A DNA stretch of 64,000 nucleotides. It comes from Actinomycetospora corticicola. GTDB taxonomy: Bacteria > Actinomycetota > Actinomycetes > Mycobacteriales > Pseudonocardiaceae. The notes below the pieces were generated by a model. It was given only the letters and a program-made list of their open reading frames with translations, was not told the origin of the DNA and searched no databases. The stretch is taken from NCBI RefSeq assembly GCF_013409505.1, contig NZ_JACCBN010000001.1, positions 5,642,001-5,706,000 on the forward strand. The letters run 5' to 3'. Numbering within the stretch: position 1 is the first letter of the stretch; every line of letters begins with the position of its first letter. A program made the position numbers and the translations under genes. Positions 42,425-55,351 of the stretch are shown here, piece after piece.

Positions 42425-43327
42425 TCAGTAGTACCAGGGGAAGGGCGACCAGTCGGGCTCGCGCTTCTCGAGGAACGACTCCTTGCCCTCCACGGCCTCG
42501 TCGGTCATGTAGGCCAGGCGCGTCGTCTCGCCGGCGAAGAGCTGCTGGCCGACCAGGCCGTCGTCGATCAGGTTGAACGAGTACTTGAGCATCCGCTGGG
42601 CCTGCGGGGACTTGCCGAGGATCTCCCGCGCCCACTGCAGGGCGGTGGTCTCCAGCTCCGCGTGCGGCACGACCTCGTTGACCGCGCCCATCCGGTGCAT
42701 CTGCTCGGCGGTGTAGGTCCGGCCGAGGAAGAAGATCTCGCGGGCGAACTTCTGCCCGACCTGCCGGGCGAGGTAGGCCGAGCCGTACCCGCCGTCGAAG
42801 GACCCGACGTCGGCGTCGGTCTGCTTGAAGCGGGCGTGCTCGGCGCTCGCCAGGGTGAGGTCGGAGACGGCGTGCAGGGAGTGGCCGCCGCCCGCTGCCC
42901 ACCCGTTGACCACGGAGATGACGATCTTCGGCATGAAGCGGATCAGCCGCTGGCACTCGAGGATGTGCAGCCGGCCCGCGCGGCCCTGCTCCTGGGCGCT
43001 GACCGCGGTCTCGGACGACGCGTACTGGTAGCCCGTGCGCCCGCGGATGCGCTGGTCGCCGCCGGAGCAGAACGCGTGCCCGCCGTCGCGCGGGGAGGGA
43101 CCGTTGCCGGTGAGCAGGACGACGCCGACGTCGGCGCTCGTCCGGGCGTGCTCGAGGGCCGTCGCCAGCTCGTCGACGGTGTGCGGGCGGAACGCGTTGC
43201 GCACCTCGGGCCGGTCGAAGGCGATGCGCACGCATCCCAGCTCGACCGAGCGGTGATACGTGATGTCGGTGAGGTCGAAGCCCTCCACCGGGCGCCAGAC
43301 CGAGCTGTCGAAGAGCGGTTCGTCCAC
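42425..43327 (-). CDS. menB: 1,4-dihydroxy-2-naphthoyl-CoA synthase
   Basis: 300 residues from GTG 43327. Crotonase fold with MenB-specific features: ITYHRSVELGCVRIAFDRPEVRNAFRPHTVDEL, the insert DGGHAFCSGGDQRIRGRTGYQYASS, KIVISVVNGWAAGGGHSLH (oxyanion Gly), and the DADVGSFDGGYGSAYLARQVGQKFAREIFFLGR segment with the catalytic Asp. It closes the second ring of menaquinone by Dieckmann-type cyclisation of O-succinylbenzoyl-CoA. menE and menC are nearby, separated from it by the GlnR-like/reductase fusion. Confidence 0.95.
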   Translation of the reverse strand: MDEPLFDSSVWRPVEGFDLTDITYHRSVELGCVRIAFDRPEVRNAFRPHTVDELATALEHARTSADVGVVLLTGNGPSPRDGGHAFCSGGDQRIRGRTGYQYASSETAVSAQEQGRAGRLHILECQRLIRFMPKIVISVVNGWAAGGGHSLHAVSDLTLASAEHARFKQTDADVGSFDGGYGSAYLARQVGQKFAREIFFLGRTYTAEQMHRMGAVNEVVPHAELETTALQWAREILGKSPQAQRMLKYSFNLIDDGLVGQQLFAGETTRLAYMTDEAVEGKESFLEKREPDWSPFPWYY

Positions 43328-43499
43328 GGGGAGCGACCCTAGGCGTCGGGTGCGGTGCCCGCGGATGCGGCGGGAGCAGGACCGACTCGCCGCGCCGTTC
43401 GCGAGGGGTACACCAGGCATCGCGCGGCACGCTCGGACCTGCTTCCCGTGCGTCTCGCGAAGGCCGACCCGGCGTCCGGAACGGAGCTCCCCGCCGAGC

Positions 43500-45953
43500 C
43501 TAGGAGCGGGTCCGCACCGGCGTGATCGGCGGGGACGGGCGGTCGGGGCCCTCGTCGTCGCCGGCCTCCCACGACAGCCCCGGCAGCCCGCGCAGGCCCG
43601 ACACGAACGGCTCCAGCCCGGTGCGGGCGACGCTGTCGGCCAGGGTCTCGTGGCCCACCCGGAGGTCCTCCCAGGTGCGCACGACCTGATCGACGAGCTG
43701 GGTGACCTGGTCCTGCGCGACCCGCCCGAGCACCCGGCCGATCCGGTCGCGCCCGAGGTCGCCGCCGAGGTGCACCCGGTAGCCGGGGACGCGCCGCCCG
43801 CGGACCGACACCAGGTTCCCGGCCAGTCCGAGGTCGGCGGCCTGGTGGCGGGCGCAGGAGGCGGGGCAGCCGGAGACGCTCACCGACACCCGCGAGTTCC
43901 GGCGCAGCACGGGGAGGTGCCACAACGCGCCGGCGAGGTCGCGGGTCGGGGTGATGGCCAGCGCGCAGGAAGGGGCCCCGACGCAGGACCGCACGTCCCG
44001 CGCCGGACGGTGGGTGTGCACGGCGAGGCCCACCGCGGCGACCCGGACGGCGAGCTCCCCGACCCGCCCGACCGGGACGTCCCGGAGCACGACGTTCTGC
44101 TCGCGGCTCAGTCGCACCATCCCGTCGCCGAGCTCGCGGGCGACCTCGGCGAGGACGTCGAGCGCGTCGGCGGACAGGCGGCCGAGCGGCACGGTGACGG
44201 TGACCGTCGCGAGGCCCGGCACCCGCTGCGGCCGCACGTCGTCGCCCCACCCGTGCTCGGGCGTCGGCCCGCTCGGCACGCCGGGGGCGTGGACCTCGGG
44301 CAGTGGGGCGGGCGCCGGCCACGGACGTCCACGCAGCTCGGCGGTGGCCTCGGCGACCAGCGCGGTGAAGCGGTCGGCTCCGAGCCGGGCGAGGAGGAAC
44401 TTGAGCCGCGCCCGGTTCGGCTGCTCGAACGCGCCGTGCGCGAGGAACACCGCGAGCACGGCGTGGACGGCCGGGAGGAGCTCGTCGCGCGGGACGAACG
44501 CGGTGAGCCGGGTCGCGAGTGTCGGACGGGAGCGGCCGAGGCCACCGCCCACCCACAACTCGTAGCCCGGCCGCCCCTCGCCGTCGAGGACGGAGACGAG
44601 CCCGACGTCGGAGACCTTGGCCTGCGCGCGGCACCCCGGGCAGCCGCCGAGGCTCACCGTGAAGCGTTGCGGCAGCCGCGTGTTCAGCCCGGGTCCGAGC
44701 CGCAGCAGCGAGTCGGTGAGCAGCTCGGCGTCGGGCGTGCAGTCGAACGGCTCCTCGGCCGAGACGCCCGCGTCCGGGCAGCTGGTGACGCCGCGGACGG
44801 TGTGCCCGCAGGTCGCGTCCGTGTCCAGGCCGGCGGCGTGCAGGGCGTCGAGGGTGTCCACGACCCGGTCGGCCGGCACACCGTGGAGCTCGAGCTGCTG
44901 GCGGGTGGTGAGGTGGACCGGGCCGGACCCGCGCCCGCGCAGGAGGGCGGCGAGCGCCGCGGCGGCGTCCGCCGACACGCGTCCGCGGGTCCGCGCGCGC
45001 AGCAGGAACGACCCGTCCTCGCGCTCCGAGCACGCCCCGAGGGTCTTGAGGCTGTAGCGCTCCAGGGCGCCGAGCCGGGCGGGGTCGGCGACCGCGTCGA
45101 GGTCGAGGGGCAGGCCCGCCCGCTTGCTCGCGACGACGTCGCCGGGGGCGTCCCGTCCACCCGGCCGGGCGGGTGCCGACGGGGCCCCGAGCGCGTCGTC
45201 CGGACGCAGCGGCGCGGCCACCCGCGCCGGCGGGGCGGCGGGCGCGGCAGCCACACCGGCCGTCGGGACGAGGGCGTAGCCGACGCCGTGGAGGGTGCGG
45301 ACCATCTCGCGGTGGGTCGGCCCGAGCGCCCGGCGCAGCGCGCGGACGTGCACGTCGACGGTGCGCGCGCTGCCCTCGTACTCCGGGCCCCACACCCGAC
45401 GCAGCAGGGCGGCCCGCGTGACGGGGCGGCCGGGCCGCGCGGCGAGGTCGGCGAGCAGCTCCAGCTCACGGCGGGCGAGCGCGAGCGGGCGCCCGCCGAC
45501 CGACGCCTGGTAGGCGACGGTGTCGACGACCAGGTCGCCGACGACGAGGGCCCCCGGTGGCGGGGCGGTCGGGCGCCGGTCCCGGCGCGGCCGCGGGACG
45601 GGCGGGACCGGGCGGGCGAGCAGGCGCAGGCGGGTGGCCACCTCGCCGGGGGAGGCGTCGGGCAGGAGCAGGGTGTCGACCGGGACGTCCTGTTCGACCG
45701 GGAACGCCGCGTCCGGTCCCACCACGACCGCGACCGGCAGCCCGGGCCGGACCGCGTCGATCGCGGCGGCGAGCTCGGCGGCGGCGAAGGGGCGGGTCCG
45801 GGCGTCGAGCAGCACGGCGTCGACGTCGACGGCGGAGGTCAGGGCGTCGGCCGCGGTGAGGGCGCCGGGGGTGACGCGGTGGTCGGGCAGCATCGCGAGC
45901 CCCGGGAGCACCTCGTCGACCGTGGACGCCCCGCTGAGCAGGAGCAGGTGCAC
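43500..45953 (-). CDS. Fusion of GlnR-like regulator with siroheme nitrite/sulfite reductase
   Basis: One uninterrupted frame, 817 residues from GTG 45953. Residues 1-115 are an atypical receiver (HLLLLSGAS, VDAVLLDART with D50, TLLLPDASPGEVATRLRLL) in which the usual Lys is replaced, as in orphan GlnR. Residues about 137-232 form an OmpR-type winged helix (ARRELELLADLAARPGRPVTRAALLRRVWG, RTLHGVGYALVP). An Ala/Pro linker (233-268) leads to a full two-repeat NirA/SiR reductase: LTTRQQLELHGV, CGHTVRGVTSCPDAG, then C657-x5-C663-x32-C696-x3-C700 for siroheme/[4Fe-4S]. It lies 23 bp after menE. Predicted: six-electron reduction of nitrite or sulfite, possibly also DNA binding. Internal GTGs in the linker could allow a separate reductase. 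Confidence 0.85.
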   Translation of the reverse strand: MHLLLLSGASTVDEVLPGLAMLPDHRVTPGALTAADALTSAVDVDAVLLDARTRPFAAAELAAAIDAVRPGLPVAVVVGPDAAFPVEQDVPVDTLLLPDASPGEVATRLRLLARPVPPVPRPRRDRRPTAPPPGALVVGDLVVDTVAYQASVGGRPLALARRELELLADLAARPGRPVTRAALLRRVWGPEYEGSARTVDVHVRALRRALGPTHREMVRTLHGVGYALVPTAGVAAAPAAPPARVAAPLRPDDALGAPSAPARPGGRDAPGDVVASKRAGLPLDLDAVADPARLGALERYSLKTLGACSEREDGSFLLRARTRGRVSADAAAALAALLRGRGSGPVHLTTRQQLELHGVPADRVVDTLDALHAAGLDTDATCGHTVRGVTSCPDAGVSAEEPFDCTPDAELLTDSLLRLGPGLNTRLPQRFTVSLGGCPGCRAQAKVSDVGLVSVLDGEGRPGYELWVGGGLGRSRPTLATRLTAFVPRDELLPAVHAVLAVFLAHGAFEQPNRARLKFLLARLGADRFTALVAEATAELRGRPWPAPAPLPEVHAPGVPSGPTPEHGWGDDVRPQRVPGLATVTVTVPLGRLSADALDVLAEVARELGDGMVRLSREQNVVLRDVPVGRVGELAVRVAAVGLAVHTHRPARDVRSCVGAPSCALAITPTRDLAGALWHLPVLRRNSRVSVSVSGCPASCARHQAADLGLAGNLVSVRGRRVPGYRVHLGGDLGRDRIGRVLGRVAQDQVTQLVDQVVRTWEDLRVGHETLADSVARTGLEPFVSGLRGLPGLSWEAGDDEGPDRPSPPITPVRTRS

Positions 45954-45976
45954 GCCTCCATCGCACCATCCGATCG

Positions 45977-47143
45977 TTACGCCGGTGTTGCTCCGCCCTC
46001 GGTCGCGAAGAGCTCCCGCACGGCCGCCCGGTCCGGCTTGCCGATCCCGCGCAGCGGCAGCTCGTCGAGCACCCGGACCGCCCGCGGCCTCGCCCGGCCC
46101 AGCCAGTCGACCTCGCGGCGGACCGCCTCGGGCTCCAGGTCGGAGCCGGTCACGACGGCGACCACCCGCGCGCCCCACTCCGGGTCCGGCACCCCGACCA
46201 CGCACGCCTCGCGCACCCCCGGCACCGCGCGCAGGGCCCGCTCGACGACGATCGGCGGCACCTTCTCGCCACCGGTGACGATCACGTCGTCCGCCCGCCC
46301 GAGCACCTCGAGCCGCCCGCCCGGGAGCACGCGCCCGAGGTCGGAGGTGCGGAACCGGCGGCCCGGGAGGAACGACGGGTCGGTCGACCCCTGGTAGCCG
46401 TCGGCGACGGTCGCGCCGCCCAGCACGATCCGTCCGACGCCGGACGCGTCCGGGTCCTCGAGGTCGAGGGTGACCCGGTCCAGCGGCACCCCGTCGTACA
46501 CGCAGCCGCCGCAGGTCTCGCTCATCCCGTAGGTGGTCACCACCCGCACCCCGGCGGCACGGGCCCGCTCGAGGAGCGCGGTCTCGGTGGCGGCCCCACC
46601 GATCAGCACCGCGCCGAACCCCCGGAGCGCGTCGAGGCCGGCGTCCGCGTCGTCCAGCAGCCGCCGCAGCTGCGTGGGCACGAGGGAGAGCCGGGTGACC
46701 GCCGGGCGGGCGGCCCGGACGGCGGCGGCGAACGCGTCGGGCCGGAAGCCGTCGCGCAGATCCATCACCGCGGCCGGCGTCCCGGCCCGGGCCGAGCGCA
46801 GCAGCACCTGCACCCCGGCGACGTGGTGCGCGGGGAGCGCGAGCAGCCAGCGGCCCTCGCCGCCGAGCCGGGCGGCCGTCGACGTCGCGGACGCGGCGAG
46901 CGCCGTGCCGGAGAGCAGGACGGCCTTGGGGACGCCGGTGGAGCCCGACGTCGTCACCACCGCGGCGACGCCGGGGCCGACCGGGGCGCGCAGCGTCGCC
47001 GGCGGGGGCGGGTCGTCGGGACCCGTCGGCAGGACCGCGGGGCCGTGCCCGGCCACGGCCGCCACGAGCCGCTCGCCGAGCGCGCGGGCGGCGGCGGCGG
47101 ACCCGTCGGTGGCGACGACCTCGACGGGGCGGGTGCGGTCCAT
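45977..47143 (-). CDS. menE: O-succinylbenzoate-CoA ligase
   Basis: 388 residues from ATG 47143, short like actinobacterial MenE. ANL motifs: VVTTSGSTGVPKAVLLSG (P-loop), LPAHHVAGVQVLLRS, TTYGMSETCGGCVYDGVPL (A5), TSDLGRVLPGGRLEVLGRADDVIVTGGEKV (A7-A8) and the catalytic Lys in GIGKPDRAAV. It activates O-succinylbenzoate through an acyl-adenylate to the CoA thioester used by MenB. It is divergent from menC, and the reductase fusion follows 23 bp downstream, so the two probably share a transcript. Confidence 0.92.
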   Translation of the reverse strand: MDRTRPVEVVATDGSAAAARALGERLVAAVAGHGPAVLPTGPDDPPPPATLRAPVGPGVAAVVTTSGSTGVPKAVLLSGTALAASATSTAARLGGEGRWLLALPAHHVAGVQVLLRSARAGTPAAVMDLRDGFRPDAFAAAVRAARPAVTRLSLVPTQLRRLLDDADAGLDALRGFGAVLIGGAATETALLERARAAGVRVVTTYGMSETCGGCVYDGVPLDRVTLDLEDPDASGVGRIVLGGATVADGYQGSTDPSFLPGRRFRTSDLGRVLPGGRLEVLGRADDVIVTGGEKVPPIVVERALRAVPGVREACVVGVPDPEWGARVVAVVTGSDLEPEAVRREVDWLGRARPRAVRVLDELPLRGIGKPDRAAVRELFATEGGATPA

Positions 47144-47190
47144 GGCCCCCACGGTAGGCCGCACCGACGGGCAAGATCGGGATCGGGGAC

Positions 47191-47202: not shown

Positions 47203-48189
47203 GTGGGCGATCTCGTCACGACCACCGGCGGCGTGGAGCTCCGGGCGGTCCCGGTGGCCCTCCCGATGCGCGTCCGGTTCCGCGGCATCACCGTCCGGGA
47301 GACGCTGCTGCTCGCCGGTCCCGACGGCGGGTGGGGCGAGTTCTGCCCGTTCGTCGAGTACGACGACGACGAGGCCGTGCCCTGGCTGCGCTGCGCGCTG
47401 GAGTCGGCGCTCGGCCCCGCCTGGCCGCCCCCGCGACGGACGCGGATCCCGGTGAACGCGACCGTCCCCGCCGTCGACCCCGAGCAGGCGCACCGCACCG
47501 TCACCGCGTCCGGGGCCGGCACCGCGAAGGTGAAGGTCGCCGAGGCCGGCCAGGACCCGGGGGAGGACCTCGCCCGGGTCGAGGCGGTCCGCGCGGCCCT
47601 GGGCCCGGCCGGACGGATCCGCGTCGACGCCAACGGCGGCTGGCCGGTCGACGCGGCCGTCACGGCGATCCGCGCGCTGGACCGGGCGGCCGGCGGCCTG
47701 GAGTACGTCGAGCAGCCGTGCCGCACCGTCGAGGAGCTGGCCGCGGTGCGCCGTCGGGTGGACGTCCCGGTGGCCGCCGACGAGTCGATCCGCCGGGCGT
47801 CCGACCCGATGCGGGTGGTCGAGGCCGAGGCGGCCGACGTCGCGGTGGTCAAGGTCGCGCCGCTCGGCGGGGTCGCGGCGTCGCTGCGCATCGCCGAGGC
47901 GATCGGGCTGCCGTGCGTGGTGTCCTCCGCGGTGGAGAGCTCGGTCGGTCTCGCCGCGGGCCTCGCCCTCGCCGGGGCGCTGCCCGAACTGCCGTACGCC
48001 TGCGGGCTCGGGACGACGAGCCTGCTCGCGCAGGACACGGTGGCGGCGTCGCTCGTGCCCGACGCCGGGTGGTTGCCGGTGCTGCCCGCAGCCCCCACGC
48101 CCGTCGTCGGGGAGGCCATGTCCCCGGACCGGGCCACGTGGTGGCTCGACCGGGTGAGCCGGGTGCTACGCCTGGTCGACGACCGGTGA
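47203..48189 (+). CDS. menC: O-succinylbenzoate synthase
   Basis: 328 residues. Enolase-superfamily features: WGEFCPFVEYDDDEAVPWLRCALE, the KVKVAE strand carrying the catalytic Lys pair, RVDANGGWPVDAAVTAI (first metal Asp), YVEQPC (Glu), VAADESIR (Asp-Glu), VVKVAPLGGV with the second Lys, and VVSSAVESSVGLAAGLALA. It dehydrates SHCHC to O-succinylbenzoate in menaquinone synthesis. Start GTG 47203 fits a leaderless transcript. menD, menF and menH are not in the window. Confidence 0.93.
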   Translation: MGDLVTTTGGVELRAVPVALPMRVRFRGITVRETLLLAGPDGGWGEFCPFVEYDDDEAVPWLRCALESALGPAWPPPRRTRIPVNATVPAVDPEQAHRTVTASGAGTAKVKVAEAGQDPGEDLARVEAVRAALGPAGRIRVDANGGWPVDAAVTAIRALDRAAGGLEYVEQPCRTVEELAAVRRRVDVPVAADESIRRASDPMRVVEAEAADVAVVKVAPLGGVAASLRIAEAIGLPCVVSSAVESSVGLAAGLALAGALPELPYACGLGTTSLLAQDTVAASLVPDAGWLPVLPAAPTPVVGEAMSPDRATWWLDRVSRVLRLVDDR

Positions 48190-48311: not shown

Positions 48312-49181
48312 ATGACCGCGGTGGCTCGGGGATCGTCGGCGGGGGCGTCGGCGGCCGGCGAGCCCGAGGGTCCTCCGGTGCACGTCCGGACCGCCTTCGG
48401 CGTCCGGGACTCGGTACCGCGGCCCCGTCCGCACCTGCCCGGCCCCGCCTGGAGCTGCGACGGTGTGCTGCTGCGCCCGGTGTCGGACACCGTGCTCGCC
48501 GCCTGGTCGGCCGCGACGCTCGAGGAACTGGCCGGCGGGGGCGTCGACGGCATCCGGCTCGCCCGGCCGGTCCGCGCCTCCGACGGCCGCCGCGTGGTGT
48601 CCGGCTGGTCGGCCTGCCACGACGTCGCGGGGGAGGTCCGCCCGCGGCACGACGACGTGGTGGCGGTCTCACTGCGCCTGCACCGCGCCACCGCCCGGCT
48701 GTCCCGCCCCCGCCTGGTCGACGACCGGGACGACATCCTCGCGCGCGCCGACCGCGCGGCGTTCGGCGAGAAGACGGTGCCGCTCGACCCCGAGACCGGC
48801 GGCGACCTGTTCGCCGAGCTCGCCCGCCGTCGGGTGTCCTCGACGCTGCCGCTGCAGCTCGTGCACGGCGACCTGTTCGGCACCGTGCTCTTCGAGGGGG
48901 CCGGGGCGGGCGAGGACGCGACCCCGCCCGCCGTCCTGGACCTCGTCCCGTTCTGGCGGCCGGTGGAGTGGGCGGCGGCCGTGGTCGTCGTGGACGCCCT
49001 CGCGTGGGGCGGCGCCGACGCGGGCATCGTCGGTCGCTGGTCGCACCTGCAGGCGTGGCCGCAGATGCTGCTGCACGGCCTGCTGTTCCGGCTGGCCGTG
49101 CACGCCCAGCACCCGGCGTGCACCAAGGAGTCGCTGCGCGGGCTCGAGCACGCCGCCCGCGTCATCACCGAACTGCTCTAG
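48312..49181 (+). CDS. TIGR02569-family protein (aminoglycoside-phosphotransferase-like fold)
   Basis: 289 residues with GGGGGAA before ATG 48312. The N-terminal half has VRTAFGVRDSVPRPRPHLPGPAWSCDGVLLRPVSD. The C-terminal half has LPLQLVHGDLFGTVLFEG and AVLDLVPFWRPVEWAAAVVVVDALAWGGADA, which parallel the catalytic HGD and metal-binding D of APH-like kinases, though in degenerate form (HGDLFGTVL in place of HGDLxxxN). The family is restricted to actinobacteria, without known function. It sits between menC and narK on the same strand. Confidence 0.7.
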   Translation: MTAVARGSSAGASAAGEPEGPPVHVRTAFGVRDSVPRPRPHLPGPAWSCDGVLLRPVSDTVLAAWSAATLEELAGGGVDGIRLARPVRASDGRRVVSGWSACHDVAGEVRPRHDDVVAVSLRLHRATARLSRPRLVDDRDDILARADRAAFGEKTVPLDPETGGDLFAELARRRVSSTLPLQLVHGDLFGTVLFEGAGAGEDATPPAVLDLVPFWRPVEWAAAVVVVDALAWGGADAGIVGRWSHLQAWPQMLLHGLLFRLAVHAQHPACTKESLRGLEHAARVITELL

Positions 49182-49313
49182 CCAACCGTGACGGGAGGCT
49201 CTCCTTCCGTCGTCCGCCCGCAACACGACGTCATCGCCGTGTAACGCCCGATTCCTACCGTCCGGTCCCGAACGGGGCGCACCACGGATCGCCCCCTGCG
49301 GGAGGCGGACGCG

Positions 49314-50705
49314 ATGACGGTGCAGGCCAGGTCCGAGGGACCGGTCCGGGGGCGGTGGATCGACGACTGGCGCCCGGAGGACGAGTCCTTCTGGCAGGGC
49401 GGCGGGAAGCGGGTCGCGAACCGCAACCTGTGGTTCTCCGTCTTCTCCGAGCACATCGGGTTCTCGATCTGGACCCTGTGGTCGGTCCTCGTGCTCTTCA
49501 TGCCGAACGACGCGTTCGGGCTCGACGTGGCCGGGAAGTTCTTCCTCGTCGCGATGCCGACGCTCGTCGGGTCGTTCCTGCGCCTGCCCTACACGATGGC
49601 CGTCGCGGTGTTCGGCGGCCGCAACTGGTCGATCATCGCCGCGGCGCTGCTGCTCGTCCCGACGATCCTCGCGGCGTTCATCGTCCAGCCCGGCGTCAGC
49701 TACACGACGCTCATGGTGCTCGCGGCGATCGCGGGCGTCGGCGGCGGCAACTTCGCCTCGTCGATGACCAACATCAACGCGTTCTTCCCCGACCGGTACA
49801 AGGGCTACGCGCTCGGCCTCAACGCCGGCGGCGGGAACCTCGGCGTCGCGGTGATCCAGCTGCTCGGCCTGCTCATCCTCGCGACGGCGGGCGGCGGCGT
49901 CACCGGCATCCGCATCCTGCTCGGGATCTACATCCCGCTCGTCGTGATCGCCACGCTCTGCTCGGCGATCTTCATGGACAACCTGAGTACCGTGCGCAAC
50001 GACACCGGTGCGCTCAAGGAGGCGACGAAGGAGGCCCAGACCTGGGTCATCTCCTTCCTCTACATCGGCACCTTCGGCTCGTTCATCGGTTACAGCTTCG
50101 CCTTCGGCCTCGTGCTGCAGAACCAGTTCGGCCGGACCCCGCTGCAGGCGGCGACCCTGACCTTCATCGGCCCGCTGCTCGGGTCGCTCATCCGCCCGGT
50201 CGGCGGCTGGCTCTCCGACCGCATCGGCGGGGTGCGGGTGACCTTCTGGAACTTCGTCGCGATGGCCGTCTCCTCGCTGATCTGCATCATCGCCTCGGGG
50301 CAGCAGTCGCTCGGCCTGTTCGTCGTCGGCTTCACCCTGCTGTTCATCACCTCCGGGATCGGCAACGGCTCGGTCTACAAGATGATCCCGGCGATCTTCC
50401 GGACGAAGGCCCTGGCCGCGTCGGAGTCGACGGGCCGGGACACCGACGCCTCCCTGCTGTGGGCACGCCGCATCTCCGGCGCCGTCATCGGGATCGCCGG
50501 CGCGATCGGCGCCTTCGGCGGCCTGCTGATCAACCTCGCGTTCCGGCAGTCCTTCCTCACCGTGAAGAGCGGCGTGCCGGCGTTCTGGGCGTTCCTCGCC
50601 TTCTACGCCGTCTGCTTCGTCGTGACCTACCTCGTCTACATGCGCAACGCGAAGGCGGCGACCGACCCGAAGACCGGGTCCACGGTCTCGTACGCGTCGG
50701 TGTAG
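49314..50705 (+). CDS. narK: Nitrate/nitrite MFS transporter
   Basis: 463 residues, 12 transmembrane segments, GGAGG before ATG 49314. NarK/NasA features: WSVLVLFMPNDAFGLDVAGKFFLVAMPTLVGSFLRLPYTMAV with the TM2 Arg (FLRLPYT), the nitrate signature GVGGGNFASSMTNINAFFPDRYKGYALGLNAGGGNLGV, and the second signature ITSGIGNGSVYKMIPAIF with an Arg earlier in SLIRPVGGWLSDRIGG. It carries nitrate in or exchanges nitrate and nitrite. No nitrate reductase is in the window; nirBD follow directly, so nitrite uptake for assimilation fits best, with nitrate reductase possibly elsewhere. Confidence 0.92.
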   Translation: MTVQARSEGPVRGRWIDDWRPEDESFWQGGGKRVANRNLWFSVFSEHIGFSIWTLWSVLVLFMPNDAFGLDVAGKFFLVAMPTLVGSFLRLPYTMAVAVFGGRNWSIIAAALLLVPTILAAFIVQPGVSYTTLMVLAAIAGVGGGNFASSMTNINAFFPDRYKGYALGLNAGGGNLGVAVIQLLGLLILATAGGGVTGIRILLGIYIPLVVIATLCSAIFMDNLSTVRNDTGALKEATKEAQTWVISFLYIGTFGSFIGYSFAFGLVLQNQFGRTPLQAATLTFIGPLLGSLIRPVGGWLSDRIGGVRVTFWNFVAMAVSSLICIIASGQQSLGLFVVGFTLLFITSGIGNGSVYKMIPAIFRTKALAASESTGRDTDASLLWARRISGAVIGIAGAIGAFGGLLINLAFRQSFLTVKSGVPAFWAFLAFYAVCFVVTYLVYMRNAKAATDPKTGSTVSYASV

Positions 50706-50783: not shown

Positions 50784-53372
50784 ATGAACCCCCGCACGGT
50801 CGTCGTCGTCGGCCACGGGATGGTCGGGCACCGCTTCGTCGAGAGCCTGCGCCGGCTCGACACCGAGGACGCGTGGAAGGTGGTGGTGCTGGCCGAGGAG
50901 AACCGGCCGGCCTACGACCGGGTCGCGCTGTCCTCCTACGTCGGCGACGCCTCGGCGGACGACCTCACCCTCGACGAGCACAGCGACCCGCTGGTGGAGC
51001 TGCACCTCGACGAGCCGGTGGCGTCCGTCGACCTCGCGCGGCGCACGGTCCGGACCGCGAAGGGTCGCGACGTCGCCTACGACGAACTGGTCGTCGCCAC
51101 CGGCAGCGTCCCGTTCGTGCCGCCGGTGCCGGGCCGCGACCTCGACGACGTCTTCGTCTACCGCACGCTCGACGACCTCGACGGGTTGCGCGCGGCGGCG
51201 GAGAAGGCGATCTCGACGGCGGGTGCGGGCCGGCGGTCCGGCGTCGTCGTCGGCGGCGGGCTGCTCGGGCTGGAGGCCGCGAACGCGCTGCGGCAGCTCG
51301 GCCTGTCGCCGCACGTGGTGGAGATGGCGCCGCGACTGATGCCGGTGCAGGTCGACGAGGGCGGTGGCGCGTTGCTCCGGCGGCTCGTGTCCGAGCTCGG
51401 CCTGCGGGTTCACACCGGCGTCTCCACGAGCTCGATCGCCCGGGACCACCGCGGCGGCCTGACCGTCACGCTCTCCGACGGCACCGAGCTCGACGCCTCC
51501 GTGGTCGTCTTCTCCGCCGGCATCCGTCCGGCCGACACGGTGGCCCGCGAGGCGGGGCTCGAGGTGGGGGAGCGCGGCGGGGTGCTGGTCGACGACCGGT
51601 GCCGGACCTCCGACGAGCACGTCTGGGCCATCGGCGAGGTCGCCGCGGTCAAGGGCCGGACCTACGGCCTCGTCGCGCCGGGGTACGCGATGGCCGAGGT
51701 CGTCGCGGGGCGGCTCACCGGCGGCGAGGGCCGCTTCACCGAGGCCGACCTGTCGACGAAGCTCAAGCTGCTCGGGGTCGACGTGGCGAGCTTCGGCGAC
51801 GCGCACGCGGCGACCGCCGGGGCGCTCGAGGTGACGCTGAACGACCCCGTGGCGGGCACGTACTCCAAGCTCGTCGTCTCCGACGACGCGACGACCCTGC
51901 TCGGCGGCATCCTCGTCGGCGACGCCTCGAACTACGAGACGCTGCGCGGCTTCCTCGGCGAGAAGCTCCCCGGCGACCCGATGTCGCTGATCGCGCCGGC
52001 CTCCGACGGGGCCGTGGGCGTCGGCATCGACGCCCTGCCCGACGGCGCCCAGATCTGCTCGTGCAACGCGGTGACGAAGGGCGCGCTCGTCGAGGCCATC
52101 AGCTCCGGCGAGGCCACGACCGTCCCGCAGCTCAAGGCCTGCACCCGGGCCGGCACCACCTGTGGCTCCTGCGTGCCGACCCTCGGCAAGGTCCTCGCGT
52201 CCTGTGGCGTCGAGGTCTCGAAGGCGCTCTGCGAGCACTTCGCGCAGTCCCGCGCGGAGCTCTACGAGATCGTCCGGGTGACCGGCCTGCGGACGTTCAC
52301 CGAGGTCGTCGAGGGCTACGGCACGGGCCGGGGCTGCGACGTCTGCAAGCCCGCCGTGGCGTCGATGCTCGCGACCCTCGCCGGCGGGCACGTGCTCGAC
52401 GGCGAGTCGGCGACGCTGCAGGACACCAACGACCACTTCCTCGCGAACATGCAGCGCAACGGCACCTACTCGGTGGTCCCGCGCCTGCCCGGCGGGGAGG
52501 TGACGCCCGAGGGGCTCATCGCGATCGGCTCGGTGGCGAAGGACTTCGGGCTCTACACGAAGATCACCGGCGGCCAGCGGATCGACATGTTCGGGGCGCG
52601 CGTCGACGACCTGCCGAAGATCTGGCGCCGGTTGGTCGACGCCGGGTTCGAGTCCGGCCACGCCTACGGCAAGTCGCTGCGCACGGTGAAGTCGTGCGTC
52701 GGCACCGACTGGTGCCGCTACGGCGTGCAGGACTCCGTCGGGCTCGCCGTCGCCCTGGAGCTGCGCTACCGGGGGCTCCGGTCGCCGCACAAGCTGAAGT
52801 CCGGGGTGTCGGGCTGCGCCCGCGAGTGCGCGGAGGCCCGGTCGAAGGACTTCGGGATCATCGCCACCGAGACCGGGTGGAACCTCTACCTCGGCGGCAA
52901 CGGCGGGTTCACCCCGAGGCACGCGGAGCTGATCGCCTCGGACCTGGACACGACGACGCTGGTCCGCACGATCGACCGCTTCCTCATGTTCTACGTCCGC
53001 ACCGCCGACCGGCTGCAGCGCACCGCGCCGTGGATCGAGTCGCTCGAGGGCGGCATCGACCACCTCCGTGAGGTGATCATGGAGGACTCGCTCGGCATCT
53101 GCGCCTCGCTCGACGAGCAGATGGCGGGTCACGTCGCGGGCTACGCCGACGAGTGGGCCGCGGTCCTGGAGGACCCGGAGAAGCTCGAGCGGTTCACCTC
53201 GTTCGTCAACGCGCCGGGCGTGCCCGACCCGACGATCGAGTTCGTCGACCACCTCGGCCGGCGGGTCCCGGCCGGGATGAAGGACGGCCAGCCGACCGAC
53301 CTCGCCGCGCTCGGCCTCGGCGGGGTCCCGATCACCGACGGAGCCCGGATCCCGATGGGAGCGCCCGCATGA
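50784..53372 (+). CDS. nirB: NADH-dependent nitrite reductase, large subunit
   Basis: 862 residues, normal for NirB. FAD/NADH domains at 1-320 (VVVGHGMVGHRFVESL, YDRVALSSYVG, GVVVGGGLLGLEAANALRQLG). A BFD-like [2Fe-2S] domain starts at C425-x-C427 and continues in ACTRAGTTCGSC, with a second CDVCKPAV Cys pair further on. The siroheme/[4Fe-4S] site is C638-x5-C644 and C678-x3-C682 (KSCVGTDWC, SGCARECAEA). With NirD it reduces nitrite to ammonium with six electrons from NADH in the cytosol. It is coupled to nirD by an ATGA overlap. Confidence 0.96.
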   Translation: MNPRTVVVVGHGMVGHRFVESLRRLDTEDAWKVVVLAEENRPAYDRVALSSYVGDASADDLTLDEHSDPLVELHLDEPVASVDLARRTVRTAKGRDVAYDELVVATGSVPFVPPVPGRDLDDVFVYRTLDDLDGLRAAAEKAISTAGAGRRSGVVVGGGLLGLEAANALRQLGLSPHVVEMAPRLMPVQVDEGGGALLRRLVSELGLRVHTGVSTSSIARDHRGGLTVTLSDGTELDASVVVFSAGIRPADTVAREAGLEVGERGGVLVDDRCRTSDEHVWAIGEVAAVKGRTYGLVAPGYAMAEVVAGRLTGGEGRFTEADLSTKLKLLGVDVASFGDAHAATAGALEVTLNDPVAGTYSKLVVSDDATTLLGGILVGDASNYETLRGFLGEKLPGDPMSLIAPASDGAVGVGIDALPDGAQICSCNAVTKGALVEAISSGEATTVPQLKACTRAGTTCGSCVPTLGKVLASCGVEVSKALCEHFAQSRAELYEIVRVTGLRTFTEVVEGYGTGRGCDVCKPAVASMLATLAGGHVLDGESATLQDTNDHFLANMQRNGTYSVVPRLPGGEVTPEGLIAIGSVAKDFGLYTKITGGQRIDMFGARVDDLPKIWRRLVDAGFESGHAYGKSLRTVKSCVGTDWCRYGVQDSVGLAVALELRYRGLRSPHKLKSGVSGCARECAEARSKDFGIIATETGWNLYLGGNGGFTPRHAELIASDLDTTTLVRTIDRFLMFYVRTADRLQRTAPWIESLEGGIDHLREVIMEDSLGICASLDEQMAGHVAGYADEWAAVLEDPEKLERFTSFVNAPGVPDPTIEFVDHLGRRVPAGMKDGQPTDLAALGLGGVPITDGARIPMGAPA

Positions 53373-53800
53373 CCGCACAGGCCGACGCCCGCCACCACCC
53401 GTCGGGCTCGACCGACGGCGCGGAGGCCAAGGACCCGCACCCGACCCCGGCGACCCCGGCCCACCCGCCGTCGGGAACGGGGTGGACCGCGGTCTGTCCG
53501 CTCGAGAAGCTGCAGCCGGAGCGCGGGGTGTGCGCGCTGGTGGAGGGTGAGCCGGTCGCGCTGTTCCGCACCCGGGACGACCGGCTGTTCGCCCTGCACA
53601 ACGTCGACCCGTTCTCGGCGGCGTCGGTGCTCTCGCGCGGCATCGTCGGCGACCTGGGCGGGACCCCGGTCGTCGCCTCGCCGTTGTACAAGCAGCACTT
53701 CGCGCTGGAGTCGGGCGTGGCGCTGGAGGACTCGGACGTCGTCGTCGCCACCTATCCTGTGCGGGTGGTGAACGGGACGGTCGAGGTCGGTGGTCCGTGA
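53369..53800 (+). CDS. nirD: Nitrite reductase small subunit
   Basis: 143 residues from ATG 53369, overlapping the nirB stop. A 35-residue Pro-rich lead (HPTPATPAHPPSG) precedes the Rieske-like fold: TAVCPLEKLQPERGVCALVEGEPVALFRTRDDRLFALHNVDPFSAASVLSRGIVGDLGGTPVVASPLYKQHFALESG. The Cys-His cluster ligands of true Rieske proteins are absent, as normal for NirD. Its stop overlaps the GTG of hemD, so the nirB-nirD-hemD chain is translationally coupled. Confidence 0.95.
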   Translation: MTAQADARHHPSGSTDGAEAKDPHPTPATPAHPPSGTGWTAVCPLEKLQPERGVCALVEGEPVALFRTRDDRLFALHNVDPFSAASVLSRGIVGDLGGTPVVASPLYKQHFALESGVALEDSDVVVATYPVRVVNGTVEVGGP

Positions 53801-54633
53801 GCGGCCCCCTGGACGGCGTGCGGGTCGGCGTGACGGCCGACCGCCGCGCCGACGACCAGATCGAGCTCCTGCACCGCAAGGGCGCGACGACGGTGCACGG
53901 CCCGACGATGCGGATCGTGCCCCTGGCCGACGACGCGCAGCTCGCGTCGGAGACCCGCGGGCTGCTCGACGCGCCGCCCGACGTCGTGGTCGCGACCACC
54001 GGGCAGGGCTTCCGCGGGTGGCTCGAGGTCGCCGACGAGTGGGAGCTGGGGGAGCGGCTGCGGGCGGTCCTCGCCGCCGCCGAGGTGCTGGCGCGGGGCC
54101 CGAAGGCGCGCGGCGCGATCCGCGGCGCCGGGTTCCGCGAGGCGTGGTCGGCCGACGAGACCGAGTCGTCGCCCGAGGTCCTGGAGCACCTGCTCGAGCA
54201 GGGGGTGTCCGGACGACGGATCGCGGTCCAGCTGCACGGCGACCCCATGACCTCCTTCCTCGCCGCGCTGCGTGAGGCCGGCGCGGACGTCGTCGAGGTG
54301 CACGTCTACCGGTGGGAGCCGCCGCCCGACCTGCCCGCCGTCGACGCCCTCATCGACGCCGTCATCGCGCGCGAGGTCGACGTCGTCACCTTCACGAGCG
54401 CTCCCGCCGTCGAGGGTCTGGTGCAGCGCGCGGAGGCGCTGGGGCGGGACGCGGACCTGCTCGCCGCCCTGCGCGACGGCGTGCTCGCCTGCACCGTGGG
54501 GCCCGTGACGTCCGCCCCGCTCGATCGTCTCGACGTGCCCTCGCTGGCGCCGGAGCGGTTCCGGTTGGGGGCGATGGTGAAGCGGCTCGAGGAACACGTG
54601 GGAGACGCAGCGCAGCGGAGCTCGACCCGATGA
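53797..54633 (+). CDS. hemD: Uroporphyrinogen-III synthase without the winged-helix tail
   Basis: 278 residues. VRVGVTADRRADDQIELLHRKGATTVHGPTMRIVPL, PPDVVVATTGQGFRGWLEVADEW, VQLHGDPMTSFLAALREAGADVVEVHVYRWEPP, VVTFTSAPAVEGLVQRAE and a final PERFRLGAMVKRLEEHV define the HemD fold of the actinobacterial nitrate-cluster type. It cyclises hydroxymethylbilane to uroporphyrinogen III, feeding siroheme to NirB. Relatives in such clusters (NnaR of Streptomyces, Rv0260c) carry an extra C-terminal winged-helix DNA-binding domain after this point; here the protein ends about 13 residues later, so that domain is missing. Confidence 0.9.
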   Translation: MSGPLDGVRVGVTADRRADDQIELLHRKGATTVHGPTMRIVPLADDAQLASETRGLLDAPPDVVVATTGQGFRGWLEVADEWELGERLRAVLAAAEVLARGPKARGAIRGAGFREAWSADETESSPEVLEHLLEQGVSGRRIAVQLHGDPMTSFLAALREAGADVVEVHVYRWEPPPDLPAVDALIDAVIAREVDVVTFTSAPAVEGLVQRAEALGRDADLLAALRDGVLACTVGPVTSAPLDRLDVPSLAPERFRLGAMVKRLEEHVGDAAQRSSTR

Positions 54634-54646
54634 GGGCGGTGTCCCC

Positions 54647-55351
54647 GTGACCCTGGTGGTCCTCGCGCACGGCACGAACGACCCGGCCGGCCGCGCGACC
54701 TGGGGTGCCCTGCTCACGCGCGTGCGGGCGCTCCTTCCCGACGTCGGGGTGCGGCTGGCCTGGGCGGGCGTCGCCCGTCCGCAGCTGGCGGACCTGCTGC
54801 CGAAGCTGCCCTCCGGACCCGTGGACGCGGAGCGGGGCGGAGCCGGACCATCGGGCGTCGTCGTGGTCCCGGCGTTCCTGGCCTCGGGCTTCCACGTGCG
54901 CCGGGACGTGCCGGAGCAGCTGGCGTCCCTCGGCCGCGACGACGTGGTGGTGACCGAGCCGCTCGGGCCGGACGCCGTCCTCGTGGACGCGGCGCTGTCC
55001 CGGCTGCGCGCCGCCAGGTGGACCGACCAGCAGGTGGTGCTGGCGGCCGCCGGGTCGACGGACCCGGTGGCGCAGGCCGACCTCCGCGTCGCGGCCGACC
55101 TGGTGCGGGAGCGGGTGGGCGGCGAGGTGCCGGTCGGCTACGTCGCGGGGGGCGATCCGCGGCTGGCCGACGTCGTCGCGGCCCAGGACGGTCCGGTCGC
55201 GCTGCTGACGTGGCTGCTGGCGCCCGGGGTGTTCCACCGGTGGGCGTCCGGGGTGGGCGCGGCCGTGGTGGCGGAGCCGTTGGGGGACCACCCGGCGGTC
55301 GCGTCGCTGCTGGTCGAGCGGTACCGCGCGTCGGTGGCGCTCGCGTCCTGA
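54647..55351 (+). CDS. Sirohydrochlorin chelatase (CbiX/SirB-like)
   Basis: 234 residues, 13 bp after hemD. LVVLAHGTNDPAGRATWGAL provides the N-terminal metal-site His, VVVVPAFLASGFHVRRDVPEQL the second His (GFHVRRDVP), and VVLAAAGSTDPVAQAD begins the degenerate second repeat. It inserts ferrous iron into sirohydrochlorin for siroheme (or cobalt for cobalamin). Position at the end of the nirB-nirD-hemD operon points to iron and siroheme, as for Rv0259c. The methyltransferase CysG/CobA is not in the window. Confidence 0.9.
   Translation: MTLVVLAHGTNDPAGRATWGALLTRVRALLPDVGVRLAWAGVARPQLADLLPKLPSGPVDAERGGAGPSGVVVVPAFLASGFHVRRDVPEQLASLGRDDVVVTEPLGPDAVLVDAALSRLRAARWTDQQVVLAAAGSTDPVAQADLRVAADLVRERVGGEVPVGYVAGGDPRLADVVAAQDGPVALLTWLLAPGVFHRWASGVGAAVVAEPLGDHPAVASLLVERYRASVALAS

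Follow-up and report, generated by a model that had tools for sequence, protein, structure and literature searches.

A gene of Actinomycetospora corticicola joins a GlnR-type transcription regulator to a NirA/SiR-like reductase in a single protein of 817 residues. It lies within a 64,000-nucleotide stretch of the genome that was analysed as a whole (hereafter the window). Full-length fusions are present in seven of 18 Actinomycetospora genomes, including that of the window, and because of this recurrence we conclude that regulator and reductase form one real gene and that a chance or assembly join is excluded. By analogy with the orphan regulator NnaR, we consider it an even call that the protein is a one-component transcription regulator for nitrite assimilation that responds to nitrite or siroheme. 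The protein probably acts as a switch, with direct sensing of nitrite or its cofactors. The fusion thereby speaks to the question of substrate sensing in actinobacterial nitrite assimilation: genes of this kind already have one pairing of enzyme and regulator, and the fusion adds another, in a genus where HemD is without a DNA-binding domain. One purified protein could reveal whether siroheme, the iron-sulfur cluster or nitrite sets DNA binding.

One gene for a regulator and a reductase

The open reading frame starts with GTG at position 45953, ends with TAG and has 817 codons, and the computed mass of 85.4 kDa is about that of the ~87 kDa product expected in a preliminary description of this DNA. 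That description had proposed an uninterrupted minus-strand frame with a receiver, a winged helix, a linker and a complete two-repeat reductase, and this GlnR-like fusion is borne out by the open frame from 43500 to 45953 and by Pfam matches that all lie above the gathering cut-off. GlnR_1st covers residues 1-112 (61 bits, cut-off 27) and Trans_reg_C residues 154-228 (74.9 bits, cut-off 26.2). The reductase families NIR_SIR_ferr (101.2 bits, cut-off 24) and NIR_SIR (139.6 bits, cut-off 27) each match in two stretches. Third-position guanine-plus-cytosine (G+C) content is 0.97-0.98 in the receiver, the winged helix and both reductase halves, all in the same frame. The linker differs in composition, with G+C of 0.85 at third and 0.83 at second codon positions.

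Long GC-rich frames in the window are overlapped by many spurious ones, which could suggest that a sequencing error joins two genes or that a second start yields two proteins from one frame. We give this reading almost no credence. The same open frame is found in seven assemblies, which rules out an assembly or frame artefact. None of the seven fusions has a stop codon in the linker, and between residues 225 and 330 there is no in-frame ATG, GTG or TTG common to all seven; therefore, the linker holds no conserved second start, and a separate reductase started inside it is ruled out. In two of the fusions (G075 and G135), there is no candidate start codon at all from residue 225 up to 288. The preliminary description had named a stop or frameshift, or a start in the linker, as signs of two separate proteins; the frame is uninterrupted in all seven, and no linker start codon is conserved among them.

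The other six carriers are A. chiangmaiensis, A. termitidis, A. soli, A. endophytica, A. sp. NBRC 106378 and A. sp. TBRC 11914. Identities of the six other fusions to the window protein are 86, 85, 84, 82, 62 and 63%. One scan of GTDB with two peptide patterns returned 13 loci, of which six are full-length fusions, every one in Actinomycetospora. Among the matches listed in samples of 150 family, 150 order and 178 phylum genomes, which overlap and in which five to six candidates were scored per genome, no full-length match lies outside the genus, and unlisted matches are too weak for such a fusion. Spread beyond Actinomycetospora is therefore unsupported by these samples and by the GTDB scan.

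A genus tree built from up to seven neighbouring proteins has two clades with support of 100, one of eight genomes (the seven carriers and G156) and one of 10 non-carriers, two of which are just 83-84% complete. No fusion was found in G156, a genome that is 59% complete. The fusion needs one change on this tree if G156 is left uncounted and two if G156 is taken as a non-carrier. Four close pairs give ratios of nonsynonymous to synonymous substitution rates (dN/dS) of 0.16-0.19 in the receiver, 0.25-0.41 in the winged helix and 0.17-0.21 in the reductase, with a range of 0.09-0.41 across all five segments. Both modules are under purifying selection in one of the two Actinomycetospora clades.

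The reductase half and what it may sense

The reductase half resembles NirA and SirA in fold, in its two NIR_SIR_ferr/NIR_SIR repeats, in the 4Fe-4S ligands and in the two pocket arginines. In NirA/SiR enzymes, for which E. coli SiR supplies the residue numbering, two arginines belong to the active site and two lysines bind the substrate. The preliminary description had noted the C-x5-C and C-x3-C ligand pairs, as well as a retained receiver residue D50, and these hold across the carriers: C657, C663, C696, C700 and D50 are invariant in all seven fusions, as are R351 and R387. The differences from NirA and SirA are the N-terminal regulator, extra cysteines in the first repeat, and Arg with Thr or Ser in place of the lysine pair. 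The nearest NCBIfam model is NirA (191.6 bits over residues 314-781, far below its cut-off of 523). An identity as CobG was ruled out (147.8 bits against a cut-off of 234.8).

Positions 430 and 432 are Lys-x-Lys in every homologue compared (33 of 33 from the family and order, nine of nine from the phylum and five of five from other phyla), Arg-x-Asn in six of six stand-alone relatives, and Arg-x-Thr or Arg-x-Ser in all seven fusions. Tobacco NiR has Lys-x-Asn, and a PDB title among the structural matches names an N226K mutant of that protein; we take N226 to be this Asn. The alignments indicate that the Arg-430 change is common to the stand-alone relatives and that the Thr/Ser-432 change is specific to the fusion. 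Judging the enzyme dead from the lost lysine pair alone was set aside, since the first Arg is common to stand-alone relatives. The preliminary description had suggested that the enzyme may act as its own regulator; with the substrate-binding pair changed, the reductase half may instead be an enzyme-derived sensor.

A tree of 39 reductases, in which the amino-acid composition of the fusion departs from the model's assumption, places the seven fusions in one clade (support 99) that is sister to six stand-alone proteins (together 100) and apart from the NirA and SirA proteins of the family and order. The stand-alone group comes from other Actinomycetota and consists of one protein from an Egibacteraceae record (L076) and five from three family codes of the phylum (L151-L155). 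Its members are 42-48% identical to the fusion and, unlike it, show no regulator module and carry Asn at the Thr/Ser position. Common to the fusion and all six are the KRAGLP start, C308, C392, C438-x2-C441, R430 and R655. Since these relatives begin with the same KRAGLP motif, the sequences indicate that an entire GlnR and an entire enzyme were brought together in the fusion.

Four of the six stand-alone reductases adjoin nitrate or nitrite genes. In one neighbourhood (L169), a HemD-winged-helix gene accompanies a NarK-family transporter that scores above cut-off and a NasC-like molybdopterin gene that scores below it; a second (L166) contains a NasC-like gene and also a NarK-like transporter, neither of which reaches the cut-off; and in a third (L165) a 2Fe-2S ferredoxin gene occurs with a NasC-like gene that is likewise below cut-off. 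The neighbours in the Egibacteraceae record are a Rieske protein and a formate/nitrite transporter, together with a HemD-winged-helix gene of the NnaR type. Another stretch (L168) carries a different molybdopterin protein, and L167 is a short contig. The 2Fe-2S ferredoxin gene of L165 (7578-7886) lies directly before the reductase and is a candidate electron donor.

These relatives bear on the main rival to a sensor, namely a trigger enzyme: a working ferredoxin-dependent nitrite (or sulfite) reductase whose turnover or cofactor loading would set DNA binding by the GlnR half. The cluster ligands and both pocket arginines in all seven fusions, the completeness of the enzyme from its N-terminal motif, the nitrate and nitrite genes beside four of the nearest relatives (with the upstream ferredoxin gene in one) and the Arg that all six relatives have at the first lysine position are all consistent with it. 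We nonetheless hold it to be somewhat improbable. The second substrate-binding position is Thr or Ser in all seven fusions but Asn in all six relatives, and the genome already has three other NIR_SIR proteins (a SirA-type reductase, the NirB at narK, and a NirB after a nasC-like gene), which leaves no need for another housekeeping reductase. "SirA-type" is our name for the genome's two-repeat reductase, a type that all 18 genus genomes have. Outside the narK locus, six of the seven carriers (not G135) show a further single NIR_SIR match, and in the window's genome this match is the NirB behind the NasC-like gene, which scores above cut-off.

The loss of the lysine pair found in the compared NirA and SirA homologues could also mean that the reductase fold is a cofactor-free scaffold that senses nothing, under GlnR control of the canonical style. 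We think this very unlikely, as the four cluster ligands and both pocket arginines are invariant in the seven fusions even across 62-63% identity.

When the profiles of the two repeats are compared (E 6e-17), C392, C405 and C438 of the first fall on C657, C663 and C696 of the second, and C441 lies one residue off C700. C405 is Gly in one fusion (G135). Four repeat-1 cysteines on or beside the places that correspond by pseudo-symmetry to the 4Fe-4S ligands, together with C308, are a feature of the NirA-like subfamily formed by the fusion and its six stand-alone relatives. It is possible that the repeat-1 cysteines form a second metal site.

An AlphaFold2 model of the full chain, built from 12 sequences, has a mean predicted local distance difference test score (pLDDT) of 74.6 and a predicted template modelling score of 0.62. 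Winged-helix blocks of ten residues mostly score 77-84, and those of the reductase mostly 73-96, with 58-69 at 281-300, 391-400, 421-430, 641-670 and 791-800. The linker scores below 50 and is predicted to be flexible or disordered between the GlnR part and the reductase. Foldseek matches the model to M. tuberculosis NirA (1zj8) with a template modelling score of 0.77 by target length, and the first 50 rows also contain GlnR chains, one of them being 8hml, the GlnR DNA-binding domain.

The regulator half and the comparison with NnaR

In GlnR, the available text of one report describes interactions of Asp-50, Arg-52 and Thr-9 as a charge triad for dimerisation (PMC10704036). D50 and R52 are invariant in the seven fusions, and residue 7, which aligns with Thr-9, is Thr in four and Ser in three. 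The ARTVDVHV segment and the GxGY of the wing are likewise invariant, and the recognition helix reads ARTVDVHVRALRR. The fusion is thus like GlnR in its GlnR_1st receiver with D50 and R52, its winged helix and the GlnR-box-like DNA elements nearby, and unlike it in carrying a reductase and in having Ala or Gln for one recognition-helix Arg. It also falls outside the GlnR class by size (two domains and ~250 residues in that class, 817 residues with a reductase here).

The GlnR half was matched in 97 of 100 family genomes, where rows other than fusions are 39-47% identical. A canonical GlnR of 266 residues is encoded elsewhere in the window's genome and is 43% identical to the GlnR part of the fusion. 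Because the genome has its own canonical GlnR, the fusion is a separate regulator. The carrier G152 has a second stand-alone GlnR-like gene (L229, 4795-7633) beside genes that, read by eye, resemble amtB-glnK. This gene was ruled out as the unfused ancestor by those neighbours and by its retained VRRLRAKL helix. A PADLOC search gave no match, and PHROGs returned one family of unknown function that matches the winged helix alone.

The closest parallel is NnaR (SCO2958, MSMEG_0432, MAB_3520c), which the available texts describe as an actinobacterial orphan regulator in which a siroheme-pathway domain is paired with a DNA-binding domain of the OmpR type, surrounded by narK, nirBD and sirB (PMC11162112, PMC10704036). 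In the accessible part of one of these sources, the M. abscessus operon has the order narK-nirBD-nnaR-sirB and the role of the HemD domain is stated to be unclear (PMC11162112). The order narK-nirBD-hemD-cbiX in the window matches that operon. The HemD at the nnaR position lacks a winged helix in 18 of 18 Actinomycetospora proteins, against its presence in 25 of 28 family homologues, these 28 being the out-of-genus loci returned (58 of 60 genomes matched, some with a second, shorter copy). NnaR and the fusion also differ. The enzyme domain is HemD in NnaR and NirA/SiR in the fusion, where Pfam finds no HEM4, and the fusion has a whole N-terminal GlnR with receiver, whereas the winged helix of NnaR is C-terminal and NnaR has no receiver.

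The preliminary description knew of no protein of this architecture. That stands for the specific pairing, since a GlnR-reductase fusion was not found in the literature searched, which left out most subscription journals; it does not stand for the general design, as NnaR combines HemD with the same type of winged helix and controls similar genes, activating narK/nirBD in response to nitrate or nitrite. Hence, a tetrapyrrole-pathway domain joined to an OmpR-type winged helix is already known, and what is new to the literature searched is the pairing of a whole GlnR with NirA/SiR. BzdR and similar proteins are not known to share folds or pathways with the fusion. BzdR and other enzyme-derived regulators are alike to the fusion in joining a DNA-binding domain to an enzyme fold, as far as the available text describes them (PMC3602430).

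In a regulator that works like NnaR, which has a siroheme-pathway domain on the same kind of winged helix, the reductase part would bind siroheme, the 4Fe-4S cluster and nitrite (or a related ligand) and report their state, and the GlnR part would bind GlnR-box-like sites before narK and before its own gene. Both the sensed ligand and the direction of the response are conjectural at this point. The fusion could take over regulation in a genus whose HemD has no DNA-binding domain. A more specific form of this proposal, which we put forward tentatively and regard as doubtful in its details, is that nitrite is read directly by the tethered siroheme reductase, so that binding or turnover controls DNA binding by the GlnR dimer, possibly with a second Fe-S cluster in the first repeat, and that the fusion has replaced NnaR where HemD lacks the winged helix.

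Sites were sought with the pattern G[CAT]AAC-n5/6-GT[AC][AG][CT]. It occurs no more than 170 bases before the fusion in seven of seven carriers and ahead of narK in 16 of 17 genomes, with G135 as the exception and with narK missing from the stretch of G156; it is absent from all eight menE 3' ends examined among the 11 non-carrier genomes. Together with the adjoining narK-nirBD-hemD-cbiX genes, the elements before narK and the fusion support nitrite metabolism as the likely theme, in line with the preliminary description. The window has four such sites on both strands, two of which are those before the fusion and narK, against a mean of 1.75 in 20 Markov resamplings (range 0-5). The element is also kept in G042 and G098, where the menE stop is displaced three bases further along. 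In G155 and G152, the element lies 35-41 bases past the menE stop and ~165 bases before the fusion.

Several points weigh against a nitrite-responsive regulator. The pattern was written after the alignments had been seen, and given the shuffle counts single sites mean little. The menE stop falls inside the element in the window, G075 and G135, and in five carriers the end of the element and the start codon are 22-23 bases apart, a gap that does not fit activation with the promoter spacing seen at narK. An Arg in the VRRLRAKL helix of GlnR is replaced by Ala or Gln, so the DNA site of the fusion may differ from that of GlnR, where this Arg contacts DNA. The sister clade of 10 genomes has no fusion that we could find, although its HemD also lacks the winged helix. 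In the model, the receiver scores just 46-75 per block, and the blocks at 641-670, which house C657 and C663, score 58-68. The narK-locus nirB, present in seven of seven carriers and three of 11 non-carriers, co-occurs with the fusion as one event on the tree and gives no independent support; it was rejected as separate evidence. Finally, the receiver is the least conserved module between distant carriers, with 49% identity and a dN/dS of 0.60 between the window protein and that of G155, against 0.38 in the winged helix and 0.45 in the reductase, which is 69% identical.

The last point, the replaced Arg and the merely 39-47% identity to family GlnR rows would also suit a protein that is mainly an enzyme, whose GlnR part serves just for dimerisation or localisation and has lost gene regulation. 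We judge this unlikely. Between G152 and G155, identity in the winged helix is 88% (dN/dS 0.19), above the 81% of the reductase, and the invariant ARTVDVHV and GxGY motifs also argue for a DNA-binding module that is kept. The short interdomain piece has dN/dS values of 0.91 (window against G155) and 1.18 (G152 against G155).

Neighbouring genes

The genes menE, fusion and menB are divergent from menC, orf48312, narK, nirB, nirD, hemD and cbiX (Table 1). All seven carriers have menC, menE, fusion, menB, narK, nirB, hemD and cbiX in this order, some with extra genes between fusion and menB, and the divergent fusion and narK are 3.4 kb apart in the window and less than 5 kb apart in all seven.

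Table 1. Coordinates of the fusion gene, its parts and neighbouring features in the window
Feature	Position	Strand
menB, downstream neighbour of the fusion	42425..43420	-
Fusion gene, 817 aa: GlnR-type regulator with NirA/SiR-like reductase	43500..45953	-
Two-repeat reductase of the NirA/SiR type, residues 271-800; whole from the KRAGLP motif at the N-terminus of stand-alone relatives	43554..45143	-
C696-x3-C700, second 4Fe-4S ligand pair	43854..43868	-
C657-x5-C663, first 4Fe-4S ligand pair	43965..43985	-
Repeat-1 cysteines C392, C405, C438, C441, on or beside the pseudo-symmetric counterparts of the 4Fe-4S ligands	44631..44780	-
R430-x-T432, place of Lys-x-Lys in NirA/SirA homologues	44658..44666	-
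Ala/Pro linker, residues 230-270; pLDDT <50 at 232-251 and 253-280	45144..45266	-
OmpR-type winged helix with leading strands, residues 134-229	45267..45554	-
GlnR_1st receiver, residues 1-112; S7, D50, R52 at GlnR charge-triad places	45618..45953	-
GlnR-box-like GCAAC-n6-GTAAC before the fusion start; contains the menE stop	45976..45991	-
menE, upstream neighbour; fusion start 23 bases past its stop	45977..47164	-
menC (o-succinylbenzoate synthase), divergent from menE	47203..48189	+
orf48312, 289 aa, between menC and narK; no Pfam match at E 0.001	48312-49181	
GlnR-box-like GCAAC-n5-GTCAT-n6-GTAAC before narK	49220..49245	+
narK-like nitrate/nitrite transporter; best NarK-family model 303.1 bits, just under cut-off 311.7	49314..50705	+
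nirB, nitrite reductase large subunit; 1049.5 bits (cut-off 578.35)	50784..53372	+
nirD, Rieske-type small subunit, start not fixed; 115.7 bits (cut-off 74.65)	53483..53800	+
hemD-like gene (278 aa) at the nnaR position; no winged helix, in contrast to NnaR	53797..54633	+
CbiX-type chelatase gene	54647..55351	+

Non-carriers have menC-orf48312-narK-hemD-cbiX without the fusion (G156 has no narK there), and among these 11 genomes menE was seen in nine and menB in seven, the others being short contigs or stretches. Because the same genes occur without the fusion, neither the men genes nor narK are tied to it. The link to menaquinone and electron transport drawn in the preliminary description finds no support on the same grounds, as menE and menC also stand beside narK-hemD in genomes of the genus that lack the fusion.

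Three further observations concern the surrounding genes. In each of the 18 genus loci examined, a homologue of orf48312 separates menC from narK (or hemD). Seven Actinomycetospora genomes (L107, L108, L109, L111, L113, L116 and L117) have narK-hemD-cbiX without nirB in between. Elsewhere in the window's genome (L060, 4533-9540), a NasC-like molybdopterin gene is followed by a second nirB.

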